Assembly (NCBI GenBank): GCA_014799395.1
Contig: JAAVID010000015.1
Coordinates: 25,202 to 89,201, forward strand
From: Oscillospiraceae bacterium
GTDB lineage: Bacteria > Bacillota > Clostridia > Oscillospirales > Ruminococcaceae
Length of the DNA: 64,000 nt
Direction: 5' to 3'
Shown: positions 16,807 to 62,064 of the stretch, in pieces
How positions within the stretch are numbered: position 1 is the first letter of the stretch
Layout of the letters: every line of letters begins with the position of its first letter
The notes under the pieces: model-generated
What the model was told of the DNA's origin: nothing
The model's database searches: none
What the model saw: the letters and a program-made list of their open reading frames with translations, nothing else
Made by a program: the position numbers and the translations under genes

Positions 16807-16835
16807 TTGACTTTATCGGGAAATTATGGTATAAT
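16807..16835 (+). promoter_or_regulatory. SigA-type promoter upstream of glgP
   Basis: TTGACT (16807-16812), 17 bp, TATAAT (16830-16835). Confidence 0.75.
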
Positions 16836-16846
16836 AATTTTGTATA

Positions 16847-17007
16847 GAGCGTGTTCACATTAACCGAAATGCTCGGATTTCGAAGCGAATTTTTCGCATA
16901 ACGAGGCGAAAATTCTTGACGTACTGTATGTACGTCAAGAATTTTCAACGAAGTTATGCAAAAAATTCGCCGAAAGACGGGCGTTGAGCGTTAATGTGAA
17001 CACGCTC
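16847..17007 (+). repeat. 161-bp near-palindromic element, copy A, in the glgP leader
   Basis: Perfect 17-bp terminal inverted repeat GAGCGTGTTCACATTAA/TTAATGTGAACACGCTC; arms pair almost throughout, centre TTGACGTACTGTATGTACGTCAA. Confidence 0.85.
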
Positions 17008-17123
17008 AGGAGCGATTTCCAAAAGGTTCCGGCACTCCGATAATAATTCGGCGCCGCGGCGGCGGCAAAACAAATCAACGGCAAAGCGGCATCATTTGCG
17101 GCATTGCCTTTAAGGAGGAAAGT

Positions 17124-19493
17124 ATGTTAGACAACACATTATTGAAGAACGATTTCGAGGACATTCTGCGCGACTCCCACGTACAGGGAAAGCAGTGCAC
17201 CCCCGCGCAGCTTCACGACGCGCTCTCCCGCGCGATAATGAAGCAGGCGGTGCCTATGATGAGCTGTTCCGCGCCTAGCGGCAAAAGCGCTTCGTATCTG
17301 TCTATGGAATTCCTCGTAGGACGCGCGGTGTACAACAACATCTTATGTCTCGGTCTGCATGACTATGCCGAGGAGCTTCTCAACAGCGCGGGCGGCAGTC
17401 TGAACGACCTTGAGGAGATCGAGGACGCTGCGCTCGGAAACGGCGGCTTGGGCAGACTTGCGGCGTGCTTCCTCGACAGCGCGGCGACTATGAAGCTCCC
17501 CTTGAACGGCTACGGTATCCGCTACAAGTACGGTCTCTTCAAGCAGACCATTGAGGACGGCTTCCAGCGCGAGTACGCGGACGACTGGACAAAATTCGGC
17601 GATCCGTGGAGCAGACGCCCCGACGACGACACCGTGATCATCCACTACTCGACGGGAGACGTAAAAGCCGTCCCCTACGATATGCCGATATTCGGCTACA
17701 AAAACGACTTCGCGGGTACTCTCCGCCTTTGGCAGGCAGAGCCCCTCAACGCGTTCGATTTCGACGCGTTCAACCGTCAGGACTATTTCGCCGCGGCAAA
17801 GGGGCAGATAGAAGCGGAGAACATCTCGGGCACTCTCTACCCCAACGACGACGCTCGTCCCGGCAAGATACTGCGCCTGAAGCAGGAGTACTTCTTCAGC
17901 GCCGCTTCCATGGCGGACTTAGTGAGAAAGCACCTCGCTGCGGGTCGTGACATCTACTCGTTCGCTGAGTATAATTCCATTCAGCTCAACGACACCCACC
18001 CCGTTATCTCCATTCCCGAGCTTATCCGCATACTCGTTACCGAGCGCAACGTTCCGTTCGCAAAGGCGCTCGAGATCGCCAAAAAGACCTTCAACTACAC
18101 CAACCACACCATTATGACAGAGGCTCTCGAGAAGTGGGACTGCGGCATTGTCGAGGAGCTTCTTCCCGACGTTTACGCGTTTATCCTGCGTATCAACGAC
18201 GAATTTATTTCGGATATGTACCGCCGCGGCATTCCGCGCGACAAGATCGAAACAATGCAGCCCGTTTCCGGCGGAATGGTTCATATGGCGAAAATGGCAA
18301 TTTACTGCTCGCAGTTCGTCAACGGCGTTGCGAAAATTCACACCGAGATACTCAAAACCGATGCTCTGCCCGAGTGGTACGAGCTGTTCCCCGAGCGCTT
18401 CCAGAACAAGACGAACGGCATTACGCCGCGCCGCTGGATAGCTCTGTGCAACCCCAAGCTCTCCGCGCTTATAACAAAGCTCATAGGCGATGAAAGCTGG
18501 ATAACCGACCTCTCCAAGCTCCGCGAGCTCCGCAAGTATATGGACGACAAAGAGGTCCTCGGCAAGTTCAGAGACATCAAGTACCTCAACAAGACCGCTC
18601 TCGCAAAGTACATCAAGGAGCACGAGGGCGTTGAGATCGACCCGAACTCCATGTTCGACATTCAGATAAAGCGCCTGCACGAGTACAAGCGCCAGCTTTT
18701 GAACGCGTTCAGCATACTGTATATTTATTATGGTATAAAAGACGGCAGTATCGCAAACTTCGCGCCCACAGCGTTCATATTCGGCGCAAAGGCGGCTCCC
18801 GGCTACGCCCGCGCCAAGGCGATAATCAAGTATATCAACGAGATAGCGAACCTTGTCAATAACGACGAGACCATAAACGGCGCTCTCAAGGTCGTTTACG
18901 TTCAGAACTACAACGTTTCCTACGCAGAAAAGCTCGTTATCGCGGCGGACATCTCCGAGCAGATCTCCACGGCGGGCACCGAGGCTTCCGGCACGGGCAA
19001 TATGAAGTTTATGCTCAACGGCACAATGACCCTCGGCACCTACGACGGCGCAAACGTCGAGATATGCGAGGAAGCGGGCGAGGAGAACAACTACATCTTC
19101 GGCGCGCGCGTTCAGGACCTCGCGCAGAGAATGCCGACCTACGACCCGAGAAAGCTCTATTCCGAGAACACCCGCATAGCGCGCGTTATAAATTCGCTTA
19201 TCGACGGCACATTCTCCGACGGCGGCAACGGCTCGTTCAGAGAGCTGTACTATTCGCTTCTGGACGGCGCTTCGTGGCACAAGCCCGACCACTACTACCT
19301 CCTCGGCGACCTCGAAAATTACGTTCAGGCAAAGCTCAAAGCCAACAGCGACTTCTGCTTCAACCACGACGAATTCATCAAGAAGTGCTGGATAAATATG
19401 ACGAGCGCGGGCAAGTTCAGTTCCGACCGCACGATCGCGGACTACGCAAAAGAGATATGGAAGATCACTTCCGCGGACGGCAAAATTTCTTAA
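17124..19493 (+). CDS. glgP: Glycogen/starch (alpha-glucan) phosphorylase
   Basis: 789 aa; LGNGGLGRLAACFLDS, QLNDTHP, KRLHEYKRQLLN, EASGTGNMKFMLNG. Confidence 0.93.
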   Translation: MLDNTLLKNDFEDILRDSHVQGKQCTPAQLHDALSRAIMKQAVPMMSCSAPSGKSASYLSMEFLVGRAVYNNILCLGLHDYAEELLNSAGGSLNDLEEIEDAALGNGGLGRLAACFLDSAATMKLPLNGYGIRYKYGLFKQTIEDGFQREYADDWTKFGDPWSRRPDDDTVIIHYSTGDVKAVPYDMPIFGYKNDFAGTLRLWQAEPLNAFDFDAFNRQDYFAAAKGQIEAENISGTLYPNDDARPGKILRLKQEYFFSAASMADLVRKHLAAGRDIYSFAEYNSIQLNDTHPVISIPELIRILVTERNVPFAKALEIAKKTFNYTNHTIMTEALEKWDCGIVEELLPDVYAFILRINDEFISDMYRRGIPRDKIETMQPVSGGMVHMAKMAIYCSQFVNGVAKIHTEILKTDALPEWYELFPERFQNKTNGITPRRWIALCNPKLSALITKLIGDESWITDLSKLRELRKYMDDKEVLGKFRDIKYLNKTALAKYIKEHEGVEIDPNSMFDIQIKRLHEYKRQLLNAFSILYIYYGIKDGSIANFAPTAFIFGAKAAPGYARAKAIIKYINEIANLVNNDETINGALKVVYVQNYNVSYAEKLVIAADISEQISTAGTEASGTGNMKFMLNGTMTLGTYDGANVEICEEAGEENNYIFGARVQDLAQRMPTYDPRKLYSENTRIARVINSLIDGTFSDGGNGSFRELYYSLLDGASWHKPDHYYLLGDLENYVQAKLKANSDFCFNHDEFIKKCWINMTSAGKFSSDRTIADYAKEIWKITSADGKIS

Positions 19494-38308: not shown

Positions 38309-41300
38309 ATGAAACTACATAAACGTATTTTAAGCGCTGTAGCAGCTTTTCTTGTGCTTACATCTGCGGTCGATCTCACTCAGATAGCACAACTCTCTGT
38401 TGTTGCGGCGGCAGATACTGTCGGCGATGAAGCTACCGGTGAAAACGGCACCGACGGCAAAGACGATGAAAACGATGAAGACAACGAAGACGGCGGCGAC
38501 GGCAACGAGGACGGCGGCGACGGCAATGAAGACGGCGGCGACGGCAACGAAGACGGCGGCGACGGCAACGAAGACGGCGGCGACGGCAACGAAGACGGCG
38601 GCGACGGCAACGAAGACGGCGGTGACGGCAACGAAGACGGCGGTGACGGCAACGAAGACGGCGGCGACGGCAACGAGGACGGCGACGATGGCAACGAAGA
38701 CGGCGACGATGGCAATCAGGGCAACGACAATAAATCCGACATCACCATCACATTTGATGGTCTTAAATATCTCATTCCCGGCGGCAGCAGCAACGCGACC
38801 GTAAAAGGTCTTGCCGCAGAATTCACGAAAGGCGAACTCGTTATTCCGTCGAAAGTGACGAATAGCGACGTTACATATACGGTAACGGCGATAGCCGCCA
38901 ACGCATTTGACGGAGAGGACGTAAACTGCGAGGGCATTACAAGCGTAGTTATTCCCAAAGGCATAACCACGATAGGGCGCAATGCATTCTATGGTTGCAC
39001 AGAGCTTGAATCGGTAGAGCTCCCCGGCAGTTTAACTTTAATAGAATATTATGCTTTCCGTAATTGTCCTATCGACACCATAAAGTTCAATGGTACCGAA
39101 AAGCAGTGGAATGATTTGATAAAAGATTCCGACCTCGGCATTCAAACCAGCTATAATGTCAATTATTCCGACGACACCGACCCAGATGAGCCCGATCCCT
39201 CGGAGACCGTCGACATAGACTTACAGGGCGGTTACTACAAACCCGAGAGTGCTTTCACTCAGAACACCAACATTATACTCCACGGCAATATTACACTGAG
39301 CGGCACTATCCGTGTTGAAAGCGGAAACGTAACCATTATCGGTAACGGTCACACCATTACCAGACACGCGGATTTCTCATCTACAATGTTCCTCGTAGAC
39401 AAGGGCGCTACCCTTACCATTAACAATGTTACAATTGACGGCAACAATGCCAAGGCAAACAGCGCGGCAATATACAACAAGGGTACTCTGTACATCAACA
39501 ATTCTGTTGTTAAAAATAACAGAAACACAGCAGTACGTACCCTCGCAGATGATAACGAAGCCACAAACGCGCTTTTCGTAGGCGGTATCGCCAACGACGG
39601 CACACTTGAGCTCACCAACAGCGCGGTATACGGCAATACCGCGGACGGCAATCAAAGCAACGTAGTTGCCGAGTACAACAACGTAAACAAAGCCACAACG
39701 ATCATCAACAGCGGTATTATCGTTGGTGAGATCGACGGCGTTACACGCAACAACGTAAACGGCGCCACACTCCGGACCGACGCCGAGGGTGAATTTACCG
39801 TTACCAACGGCACACATATCGTTAGCTGCACAAACGGCGACTTCATTTATGCAAACCCCACAGGCTTGAAAGCCATAGTTAATGGTGAAGAGAAGAATAT
39901 TGATTACGATAACAACACCTGGTCTTTCTATGTAAACGAAAAGAAGCCCGCCGACAAGCTCACTTGGGACGCGAACAGCGTTATCAACGCTCTCGATATA
40001 GACAACGATACCGAGATTACGCTTAACGGCAATGTTTCCGTAAACGGCGTTATCCACATCAAGAGCGGAAACGTGATCATTAACGGCGGCAATAAAACTA
40101 TCAGCCGTAACGCGGGTTTCCTGTACACAATGTTCCTCGTAGACAAGGGCGCGTCTCTTACCATTAACGATGTTACCTTTGACGGCAACAATAAAGTTAA
40201 TGCTTACAGCGCAATTATTGTAAACGACGGCACTTTGACCGCAAACAACTGCGTATTCAAAAACAACAATAACACCTCCGCAAAGACATTCACCAATGCG
40301 CTTAATGTCGGCGGTGTTGCAAACAACGGCACTCTCGTGCTCAACAACTGCGCGGCATTCAACAATAAATCCGGCGACGACGAGCAGAGCAACGTTAAGT
40401 CCGATAACAGCAACGTAACTATCTACGGCGGTCTTATCGTCGGCGACATCGGCTCCAACTTTACAACAGCCGAGAGCGGCACAAACAGAGTAAGCAGGGG
40501 CACTATTGAAACAAACGCAAAGGGCACTTTCTCCGTTACAAACGGTACAAAAACTGTTGAATGTAAAAACGGCGATGTTCTTTACGCATACTCCACAGGC
40601 TTGACAGCGAAAACCCCTAAAGAGACTAAAACTATTACTTATGAAAACTCCAAGTGGAAGTTCACGGTAGCAGATGAAGCGGAGACTATCGAGTGGGAAG
40701 CAGGCACGACTAAAAACGGTCTCACGATAACCAAGAATACCGAAATCAAGATCGTACCCAGCGAAAACACTTATCCCTCTCCGACAAGTGTTACTTTGAA
40801 CGGCACTATCACAATTAAGAGCGGAGCAACCGTTATCATAAGCGGCGACGGCTTCACTATCGCACGCGGTAATAGTTTCAAAGACACAATGTTTGCCATT
40901 GAAAAAGACGCGACCGTTGTCATCAAAAATGTTATCTTTGACGGCAAGAATGTTGAAGCCCAGAGTGCAATTATCGTCAATAACGGCGGTTTGGGCGTAG
41001 ACAATTGTGTATTCACAAACAATAAAAACACAGCCGCAAAATCCAACGATGTCGGCGGTATCGCTAACTTCGGCACACTCAAGTTCCGCAACAGTTCGGC
41101 ATACGGAAATACGGCAAATAAAGATAGTCAGAGCAACGTCAAGGCGCTTAACGGTTCTACAACAGACATCGAAAGCGGTCTCATCGTCGGCGAAATTGAC
41201 GCAGGCGGAAAGGCAACCATTAACAACAGTATGCGCAAGGGTACTGTAAACGCAGTCGCAACCGACTATTTCGAGGTTACAAACGGCACAAATACGGTAA

Positions 41301-42388
41301 AGGTAAAGATCGGCGACATTCTTTATGCTAACCCCACAGGCTTGAAAGCAACTATCGGAAATAAGACTTTCTCCGGGTCATTCGAGAATTCCAAGTGGAT
41401 ATTCTCCGATGAGTGCATAATTACTTATCAGCTGAACGGCGGTACTATAACAGGCACCTTTGAAAATCCCAAGTCCTATCAGTACGGCGCTAAGGTCCAG
41501 TTCCCTACCCTCACCAGAAACGGCTACACATTCGGCGGCTGGTACGAGGATTCGTTGTTCGCGTTCCCCGTAAAGGATACCGCTAACGTAACCGCAACAG
41601 GCAACAGAACATACTACGCAAAGTGGACACAGAACCCCAATACAAACCAACCCGGAACAAATCAACCCGGCACCAACCAGCCCGGAACTAATCTGTCGGG
41701 AACAAACCAGCCCGGCAACAACGATAACGAACTCATCAATAAGGGCGTTATCGTTGGAACAAACGCTCCGAACGGAGTTATCGCTTCCACACTGTCCGAC
41801 CTTATCAGATACGTTCTGACAAACGCCGACATTGAGGCTCTTGAGAACAACAAGAAGATCGACATTTCCTTGGGTATCACAAACATCAACGGTTCCGCTC
41901 CGCAGGCTGACAGAGCCGTAATCGAGGAATTCCTCAGAACTCTGAACGATTACAGACTCGGCTATCTGCTCGACCTCAAGCTCTACAAGACCGTTGGCTC
42001 CGACCTGTACACCGTAAAGGAAACAAGCGGCGAGATCACGCTCAGCATTAACGTTCCCGAAACGCTCAAGGCTTCCGGAAGAACATTTGGTATCGTACGC
42101 GTTCACAACGGCGCTGCTACATTCCTCCCGGATACCGACAGCAATGCAGGCACTATCACGTTCAAGACGGATAAATTCTCGACCTACGCGATAGTATACA
42201 AGGACGGTCAAAGCGGAAGCAACAATCCCGGCACTCCTAACAATCCTAGCAATCCCAACGGCGGTTCCAACGCAAACACAAACCCCGACACCGGCAACCG
42301 CACCTCCCCCGTTATCGCGATCGCGCCCGTAGCTTCATCGCTCACCCTCGTAGCTACCGCTAAGCGCAAGAAAAAGGAAGAGCAGTAA
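38309..42388 (+). CDS. Large secreted, cell-wall-anchored modular surface protein
   Basis: 1359 aa; signal peptide, acidic EDGGDGN repeats, BspA-type LRR (AFYGCTELESVELPGSLTLIEYYAF), three similar beta-helix-like modules, InlB-type repeat (ITYQLNGGTITG...GYTFGGWYED...YYAKWTQN), C-terminal NPDTGN + hydrophobic stretch + KRKKK. Confidence 0.88.
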   Translation: MKLHKRILSAVAAFLVLTSAVDLTQIAQLSVVAAADTVGDEATGENGTDGKDDENDEDNEDGGDGNEDGGDGNEDGGDGNEDGGDGNEDGGDGNEDGGDGNEDGGDGNEDGGDGNEDGGDGNEDGDDGNEDGDDGNQGNDNKSDITITFDGLKYLIPGGSSNATVKGLAAEFTKGELVIPSKVTNSDVTYTVTAIAANAFDGEDVNCEGITSVVIPKGITTIGRNAFYGCTELESVELPGSLTLIEYYAFRNCPIDTIKFNGTEKQWNDLIKDSDLGIQTSYNVNYSDDTDPDEPDPSETVDIDLQGGYYKPESAFTQNTNIILHGNITLSGTIRVESGNVTIIGNGHTITRHADFSSTMFLVDKGATLTINNVTIDGNNAKANSAAIYNKGTLYINNSVVKNNRNTAVRTLADDNEATNALFVGGIANDGTLELTNSAVYGNTADGNQSNVVAEYNNVNKATTIINSGIIVGEIDGVTRNNVNGATLRTDAEGEFTVTNGTHIVSCTNGDFIYANPTGLKAIVNGEEKNIDYDNNTWSFYVNEKKPADKLTWDANSVINALDIDNDTEITLNGNVSVNGVIHIKSGNVIINGGNKTISRNAGFLYTMFLVDKGASLTINDVTFDGNNKVNAYSAIIVNDGTLTANNCVFKNNNNTSAKTFTNALNVGGVANNGTLVLNNCAAFNNKSGDDEQSNVKSDNSNVTIYGGLIVGDIGSNFTTAESGTNRVSRGTIETNAKGTFSVTNGTKTVECKNGDVLYAYSTGLTAKTPKETKTITYENSKWKFTVADEAETIEWEAGTTKNGLTITKNTEIKIVPSENTYPSPTSVTLNGTITIKSGATVIISGDGFTIARGNSFKDTMFAIEKDATVVIKNVIFDGKNVEAQSAIIVNNGGLGVDNCVFTNNKNTAAKSNDVGGIANFGTLKFRNSSAYGNTANKDSQSNVKALNGSTTDIESGLIVGEIDAGGKATINNSMRKGTVNAVATDYFEVTNGTNTVKVKIGDILYANPTGLKATIGNKTFSGSFENSKWIFSDECIITYQLNGGTITGTFENPKSYQYGAKVQFPTLTRNGYTFGGWYEDSLFAFPVKDTANVTATGNRTYYAKWTQNPNTNQPGTNQPGTNQPGTNLSGTNQPGNNDNELINKGVIVGTNAPNGVIASTLSDLIRYVLTNADIEALENNKKIDISLGITNINGSAPQADRAVIEEFLRTLNDYRLGYLLDLKLYKTVGSDLYTVKETSGEITLSINVPETLKASGRTFGIVRVHNGAATFLPDTDSNAGTITFKTDKFSTYAIVYKDGQSGSNNPGTPNNPSNPNGGSNANTNPDTGNRTSPVIAIAPVASSLTLVATAKRKKKEEQ
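38486..38716 (+). repeat. Eleven-unit 21-bp in-frame minisatellite
   Basis: GAAGACGGCGGCGACGGCAAC units with few substitutions; 9 EDGGDGN plus 2 EDGDDGN. Confidence 0.95.
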
Positions 42389-60489: not shown

Positions 60490-61122
60490 TTATGCTTTAA
60501 CCGCGTCGCAGATAGTTACAACGCCGCCCTTAGGACCGGGAACCGCGCCCTTTACCGCGATAAGGTTGTTCTCAGCGTCAACCTTAACAACGACAAGGTT
60601 CTGCACGGTAACATTCTCCGCGCCCAGGTGACCCGCCATCTTCTTGCCCTTGAAAATTCTCGACGGGCTGGAGCAAGCGCCCATAGAGCCCGCTTCTCTT
60701 GCAACGGGACCCGTACCGTGAGATTCTCTCAGTCTGTGCTGGTTGTGACGCTTGATAGCGCCCGCGTAGCCCTTACCCTTGGATACGCCGGCAACGTCGA
60801 TAACGTCGCCCTCTGCGAATACGTCAGCCTTGATAACGTCGCCGGTGTTGAACCCGGAAATGTCGTCAAAACGGAACTCCTTAAGGGTTTTCTTGAACGC
60901 AACGTCATTCTTCTTGAAATGACCCTGCTCGGGCTTGTTTACGTGCTTTGCGGATACTTCGCCAAAGCCCAGCTGAACAGCCTCGTAGCCGTCGTTTTCG
61001 GTTGTCTTCTTCTGAACAACCACGCAGGGACCCGCTTCGATAACGGTTACGGGAACGACCTTGCCTGCTTCGTCAAAGACCTGCGTCATGCCGATCTTCT
61101 TGCCGATGATAGCTTTTTTCAT
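60490..61122 (-). CDS. rplC: 50S ribosomal protein L3
   Basis: [40 protein letters not shown]. Confidence 0.97.
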
Positions 61123-61207: not shown

Positions 61208-61368
61208 GAACTTGTCCACATAGCTGCTCAAAGGCGGCTTTCGGCGGATTTTTTCGATTGCTGCGTCAAAACTCCTTGACGTACATAAAGTACGTCTGCG
61301 TCGTTTTTCCTTGCACTCGAAAAAATCCGCTTCGAAATCCGCTCTTTTCGAGCTATGCGGACAAGTTC
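61208..61368 (-). repeat. 161-bp near-palindromic element, copy B, between rpsJ and rplC
   Basis: Terminal inverted repeat GAACTTGTCCRCATAGCT; minus strand aligns with copy A (GGATTTCGAAGCGRATTTTT...GACGTAC..TATGTACGTCAAG...AATYCGCCGAAAG). Confidence 0.85.
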
Positions 61369-61419: not shown

Positions 61420-61731
61420 TCAGATATCCATTGAAATCTCTACGCCTGCGGGCAGCTCCAGCGACTGGAGAGCCTCGATGGTCTTCTGGGACGGACGGAT
61501 AACGTCGATAAGGCGCTTGTGAGTTCTCATCTCGAACTGCTCGCGGGAATCCTTATACTTGTGGACCGCTCTCAGAATAGTTACGACCTGCTTGTCTGTG
61601 GGAAGCGGAATAGGACCCGCAACTCTCGCGCCGCTGCGCTTAGCAGCGTCAACGATCTTAGCGGCAGCCGCGTCAACAACGCTGTGCTCGTAACCCTTGA
61701 CCTTGATTCTTACCTTCTCATTAGATGCCAT
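61420..61731 (-). CDS. rpsJ: 30S ribosomal protein S10
   Basis: [45 protein letters not shown]. Confidence 0.97.
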
Positions 61732-62064
61732 TGATTTTTCAACCTTTCTTCGTGATGTTTTAGCGGACGAGTAACTTTCCGCTTTCTTTAACCGCTCCTC
61801 CTTTGCGCAAGTTGGGGGAGCAGACAGCCGGCGAAGGCTTTCTGAAAAATCCACCGAGCCGTGTGTTTCATTTTCCCGAACGCACCTGTTAGTTATCCGA
61901 GTTCTCTCGGACACTTTAACGGCGCTCCCGGAACGAACCCAACGTCCCGTAAAACTTTTCGCCCGAATTCAATTCGGACATACTCCATCGAAATTACCGC
62001 GAACGCTCGCGCAACCTCCGACTTCATCGCCAAAGTGACCTGATTTAACAAGCCACCGCTAATT

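Follow-up and report, generated by a model that had tools for sequence, protein, structure and literature searches.

A probable IS5-type MITE with a near-palindromic body lies between the glgP promoter and coding sequence in an uncultured Oscillospiraceae bacterium

The 161-bp near-palindrome in the glgP leader of this Oscillospiraceae bacterium is, with a probability of about 90%, an IS5-type MITE, that is, a non-autonomous transposon of ~161 bp that entered the glgP leader at about transcript position +5. IS5-type MITEs are a known kind of mobile element, and the insertion is real and lineage-specific. Less ordinary in the family are a common interior carried with two kinds of ends, hairpins nested within the element, and a visible cycle of arm conversion and deletion. 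Coordinates refer to the window, the whole 64,000-nucleotide stretch of DNA that was analysed; the glgP leader and its element comprise the following features.

16807–16835, plus strand: glgP promoter TTGACT-17-TATAAT with TG before the −10 (−35 TTGACT at 16807–16812, 17-bp spacer, −10 TATAAT at 16830–16835; score 11/12), conserved in genus leaders
16845–16846, plus strand: left target TA adjoining the element, TA being preferred by the family
16847–17007, plus strand: whole element, MITE subfamily A, 161 bp, from its palindrome, hairpin and BLASTN copies
16847–16864, plus strand: left terminal inverted repeat GAGCGTGTTCACATTAAC, a perfect 18-bp arm matching IS5-type ends
16916–16938, plus strand: perfect core TTGACGTAC-TGTAT-GTACGTCAA, from comparison among copies
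16986–16990, plus strand: internal GAGCG, a direct repeat of the terminal GAGCG at 16847–16851 (element positions 140 and 1)
16990–17007, minus strand: right terminal inverted repeat, a perfect 18-bp arm
17112–17118, plus strand: glgP ribosome-binding site AAGGAGG, from sequence, ~104 nt past the element
17124–19493, plus strand: glgP, glycogen/starch phosphorylase, 789 aa (Phosphorylase, Pfam PF00343, E = 1.2e-280)

The first-pass annotation had described a near-palindrome with perfect ends and no encoded protein. Both points were borne out: the outer arms are 18 bp, not the 17 bp given there, and no ORF of at least 100 aa was found within the element. The inner arm pair matches at 94%, and the core arm pair (16908–16924 and 16930–16946) is perfect over 17 bp. 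As RNA, the 161-bp element is predicted to form a hairpin of −97.2 kcal/mol (z = −15.4), a value matched by no shuffle. A scan of 15 loci with copies against the Rfam covariance models gave no family that matches the element.

The element begins 12 bp past the −10, which places it at about +5 of the transcript, assuming a start 7 bp after the −10. The positions proposed earlier, directly after TTGACT-17-TATAAT and about 100 nt ahead of the ribosome-binding site, were both confirmed, and the proposed placement, by which the element would be transcribed at the very 5' end of the glgP mRNA, is supported. The same promoter, in the form TTGAYT-16/17-TATAAT or TAAAAT, was found in 22 of 27 genus leaders examined, that of the source genome (G000) included. 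In the closest relatives (G020, G021 and G014) the conserved glgP promoter is followed by ...TATA and the element is absent. None of the other genus glgP leaders examined holds it, and the insertion was seen in one species only. The glgP insertion is therefore lineage-specific. Its 3' flank is AG instead of TA, so the glgP-leader copy is without an intact target duplication.

An IS5-family transposase would have acted on ends such as GAGC(C/G)TGTTCACATTA, and the element would have entered a TA dinucleotide ~5 bp past the point where glgP transcription starts, solely in the source species' lineage. Since the promoter was left intact, a 161-nt hairpin would form the start of the glgP mRNA; this hairpin has no U-tract and would probably be read through.

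The proposal of a multi-copy family was upheld by a genome-wide search. BLASTN against the element's own genome returned 32 match rows, with some places counted on both strands of this palindromic element, and many further matches were found in sister species. Full-length matches in the own genome were 96, 85 and 81% identical, while partial or diverged ones went down to 66%. A profile search of all fetched DNA gave 51 non-redundant near-full-length copies. Host range was sampled by BLASTN in 61 genomes. Within one uncultured Oscillospiraceae-like genus, 20 of 37 species carried the element, and the 24 genomes sampled from other genera of the order gave no match. Named carriers are mostly MAGs of uncultured Oscillospiraceae, Ruminococcaceae or Clostridia, and no copies were found in phage records, plasmid records or viral contigs. 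By rough ORF calls, the gene orientation of the 51 copies is random (15 sense-sense, 17 antisense-antisense, 16 mixed and 3 undetermined).

Subfamilies A and B have a common interior and different ends. Those of subfamily A are GAGCGTGTTCACATTAAC, GGGCGTGTTCACATTACC and variants. TA flanks its copies on the left in 26/32, on the right in 25/32 and on both sides in 22/32, against a TA background of 6.5% (P ~1e-25 for the left flank and 5e-24 for the right). The ends of subfamily B are GAACCTGTCCACATAGCC. TA on both flanks was found in 0 of its 18 copies, and identical 3-bp flanks were found in seven of them, mostly of the form TNA, which is an apparent 3-bp duplication. For this apparent TNA duplication a second type of transposase may have to be assumed. 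The copy at L004 combines A ends with a B-like interior, showing that modules have been exchanged between the subfamilies. A GGGCGTGTTCACATTA subfamily of the MITE also exists.

The window contains a second copy, with subfamily B ends.

61208–61368, minus strand: MITE copy of 161 bp with subfamily B ends (GAACTTGTCCGCATAGC / GCTATGTGGACAAGTTC), between rpsJ and rplC, sense

This copy is flanked by rpsJ (stop at 61420) and rplC (start at 61122) of the S10 operon. As it lies there in the sense direction, a ribosomal protein operon can evidently accommodate such a hairpin. Upstream of it is an S10-Clostridia leader, at about 61959–62035 of the window. At locus L011, TTGACA-18-TATAAT is followed after ~12 bp by a B-type copy, which in turn immediately precedes a gene whose product starts MAKYFGTDGF, probably glmM. 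It is a second case of the element sitting between promoter and start codon.

The ends of subfamily A are common to IS5-family elements of sister species, incomplete in the assemblies, and of proteobacterial plasmids. In the sister species G063, G066 and G024, repeats at contig ends begin GAG(C/T)CTGTTCACATTAAA adjoining TA. These repeats encode a transposase C-terminus (...GFIPAVPPKRNRKEPWDYDKELYKRRNEIERYFRRLKRFRKVFTRYDKLDIVFLAVISL...) that is read toward that end and finishes inside the terminal repeat. The transposase fragment matches Pfam PF13586 and PF01609, and also the IS5 family model NCBIfam NF033580 (E = 1.7e-23); this match falls short of the cut-off set for whole proteins, as a fragment would. 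On plasmids of Cupriavidus and Paracoccus, IS5 relatives carry the ends GGGCGTGTTCACACTA / GGGCGTGTTAACACTA, both TA-flanked. A complete autonomous parent did not turn up: in the sister-species assemblies, the IS5 sequences that share these ends are cut off where their contigs stop. The source genome, a draft of 112 contigs from which collapsed repeats may be missing, gave no copy of a matching IS5-type transposase, and its only DDE_Tnp_1 match is truncated and located at a contig end.

Other candidates were rejected. Further DDE_Tnp_1 elements of the genus are without matching ends. An IS630/Tc1-mariner parent was suggested by the TA target, and no DDE_3 match was found in the genome. An ORF next to a solo end had looked like a transposase candidate but encodes a homoserine dehydrogenase.

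Comparison of the core arms points to conversion within the palindrome. The left core arm of the glgP-leader copy, TTGACGTAC, is the exact complement of its right arm, GTACGTCAA. The 96%-identical sibling of this copy (L002) has GCAGGCGTAC at the left core arm, and the change between them includes a 1-bp loss. Other copies have GCAGRCGTAC or similar at this position, and the glgP-leader core was found in no other copy. At L019 a similar perfect core is present with another sequence (CTCCTAGGCGTAC/GTACGCCTAGGAG). In these two copies a core arm appears to have been rewritten to the exact complement, as template-switch correction of a quasi-palindrome would leave it.

Shortened forms of the element of 55, 47 and 22 bp were also found, and short deletion derivatives roughly equal full copies in number. 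Deletion between the terminal and internal GAGCG would yield exactly the 22-bp solo form, GAGCGTTAATGTGAACACGCTC. This form is present at ~6 sites in the source genome, with further sites in sister species, and usually follows TA or CA; one of its sites is unoccupied in both G014 and G021. A different palindromic element (GTGCTGTTCCACTCAAAAT...) was observed in G020 at a 22-bp solo site of G000 (L298, G020:C23, near 1360–1490, and L013).

The near-perfect palindrome of the MITE family most likely has its basis at the DNA level. The transposase would need the outer ends of the element, while template-switch repair from one arm to the other, together with exchange among copies, would maintain the match of the inner arms; deletions between short repeats would destroy the palindrome. 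A more tentative scheme, to which we give somewhat less than an even chance, treats one palindromic interior as 'cargo' moved by two kinds of IS5-type transposase (A at TA, B at the apparent TNA). Its arms would be kept complementary by repeated template-switch conversion, with smaller hairpins nested inside.

Several further repeats were observed. A 25-bp hairpin, GCGTTTTGCGCRCAGCGCATAATGC, occurs 17 times in G000 (C6:44188, C6:44238, C81:10417, C81:10467, C81:92429, C39:19840, C21:8160, C64:59660 and nine more), nearly always nested in larger repeats. Its hosts are copies of the 161-bp MITE or of a second repeat family beginning GGCAACACCGCACAATTATTGTCG, and its stem variants change on both sides (e.g. 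GTGC/GCAC). A second nested hairpin of ~65–100 bp (..GGTGAACGCC..GGCGTTCAC..) lies near element position 128–132 in several species (loci L111, L112, L118, L119, L121 and L126). A related palindromic family with ends GAGCCTGTTCAGTATCTC was found at L221:1006-1169, L017:1636-1821 (minus) and L140:439-602 (minus), the L221 copy being ~330 bp upstream of glgP in G014. Elsewhere in the window, 38309–42388 encodes a protein of 1359 aa that combines BspA-type leucine-rich repeats with a Listeria-Bacteroides repeat domain.

The first-pass annotation had also suggested that the element was recruited as an RNA structure. The MITE would then have been taken over as a regulatory RNA whose 5' hairpin shields the glgP transcript or undergoes RNase III cleavage, with glgP expression depending on the hairpin. 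The start at ~+5 of a genus-conserved promoter and the very stable predicted RNA are consistent with this proposal. So are the many paired changes (61 plus-strand consensus pairs, 97% of cells paired, 53 further Watson–Crick pair types) and the finding that, in 50 of 51 copies, the plus strand folds better than its complement. Moreover, there are precedents in Correia elements, which are cut by RNase III, and in ERIC elements, which alter mRNA decay (PMC10969869, PMC2229807). Nevertheless, a palindromic transposon likewise displays paired changes, template switching in replication yields them at the DNA level (PMC8794818), and the strand asymmetry of folding may reflect shared ancestry. The excess of G.U-preserving over A.C-producing changes was not significant once pairs picked by one-strand folding were set aside: on the 48 pairs supported by both-strand folds, there were 22 types of change leaving G.U against 11 leaving A.C, without significance in either class. 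RNA-specific selection, as suggested by the plus-strand fold bias, was rejected because this symmetric pair test was not significant and the orientation of copies relative to neighbouring genes is random. The random orientation, the restriction of the glgP insertion to one species and the common deletion derivatives do not support the suggested recruitment, which is possible but unsupported. The element may affect glgP expression; a selected regulatory effect, and with it a regulatory RNA, appears unlikely.

A long hairpin right behind a promoter might also attenuate or terminate transcription within the glgP leader. This is very improbable, given that no terminator-like site was found in that leader and no U-tract follows the hairpin, that a sense sister copy lies between rpsJ and rplC in the S10 operon, and that copies are found on either side of genes and in either orientation. 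The first-pass annotation had named REP-like as an alternative to MITE-like, and a palindromic, intergenic and dispersed element would suit a REP or REPIN-type element moved by a RAYT (Y1 HUH) transposase. However, a TA target duplication combined with long, IS5-like terminal inverted repeats characterizes DDE transposons rather than REP elements, and the TA duplications and matching IS ends already contradict such an origin, which is scarcely tenable. The terminal inverted repeats, target duplication and IS5-type parent indicate that the element is MITE-like rather than REP-like, and an IS5-type MITE is the reading that we retain.

Similar architectures are known from other bacteria. The ERIC or IRU element (127 bp) is an imperfect palindrome with TA termini, mostly intergenic, whose transcript forms one long stem-loop (PMC2229807). 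Judged from this literature description, the likeness is one of architecture only: an imperfect palindrome of 100–200 bp with TA termini and a long stem-loop. The hosts are unrelated, and the present MITE has long perfect terminal inverted repeats and IS5-type elements with matching ends, whereas we know of no parent element for ERIC. RUP of Streptococcus pneumoniae and the Correia/NEMIS elements are MITEs with terminal inverted repeats and TA termini; the repeats of RUP are common to an IS, and it is thought to be moved by IS630-Spn1 (PMC2229807). The present element is likewise a MITE with terminal inverted repeats and TA termini, but the parent of RUP is an IS630 element, whereas the present ends match the IS5 family and the genome gave no DDE_3 (IS630) match. 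With the IS5 family itself (NCBIfam NF033580) it shares terminal repeats of the form GRGC(C/G)TGTTCACAYTA and TA flanks, but it is without a transposase gene, and its palindromic interior is unrelated to the IS interior.

To our knowledge, no IS5-derived MITE family has been described from this uncultured gut lineage, to which the present family is thus an addition. The glgP leader offers a natural experiment, with a 161-nt hairpin at +5 of a conserved promoter and sister species that have the empty site. The full, shortened and 22-bp forms, together with the arm-to-arm conversions, make the persistence and decay of long bacterial palindromes testable by comparison. If the interior is indeed moved by two transposases and maintained by template switching, the family would provide a genus-wide natural record of how palindromes arise, are repaired and are deleted in bacterial chromosomes.
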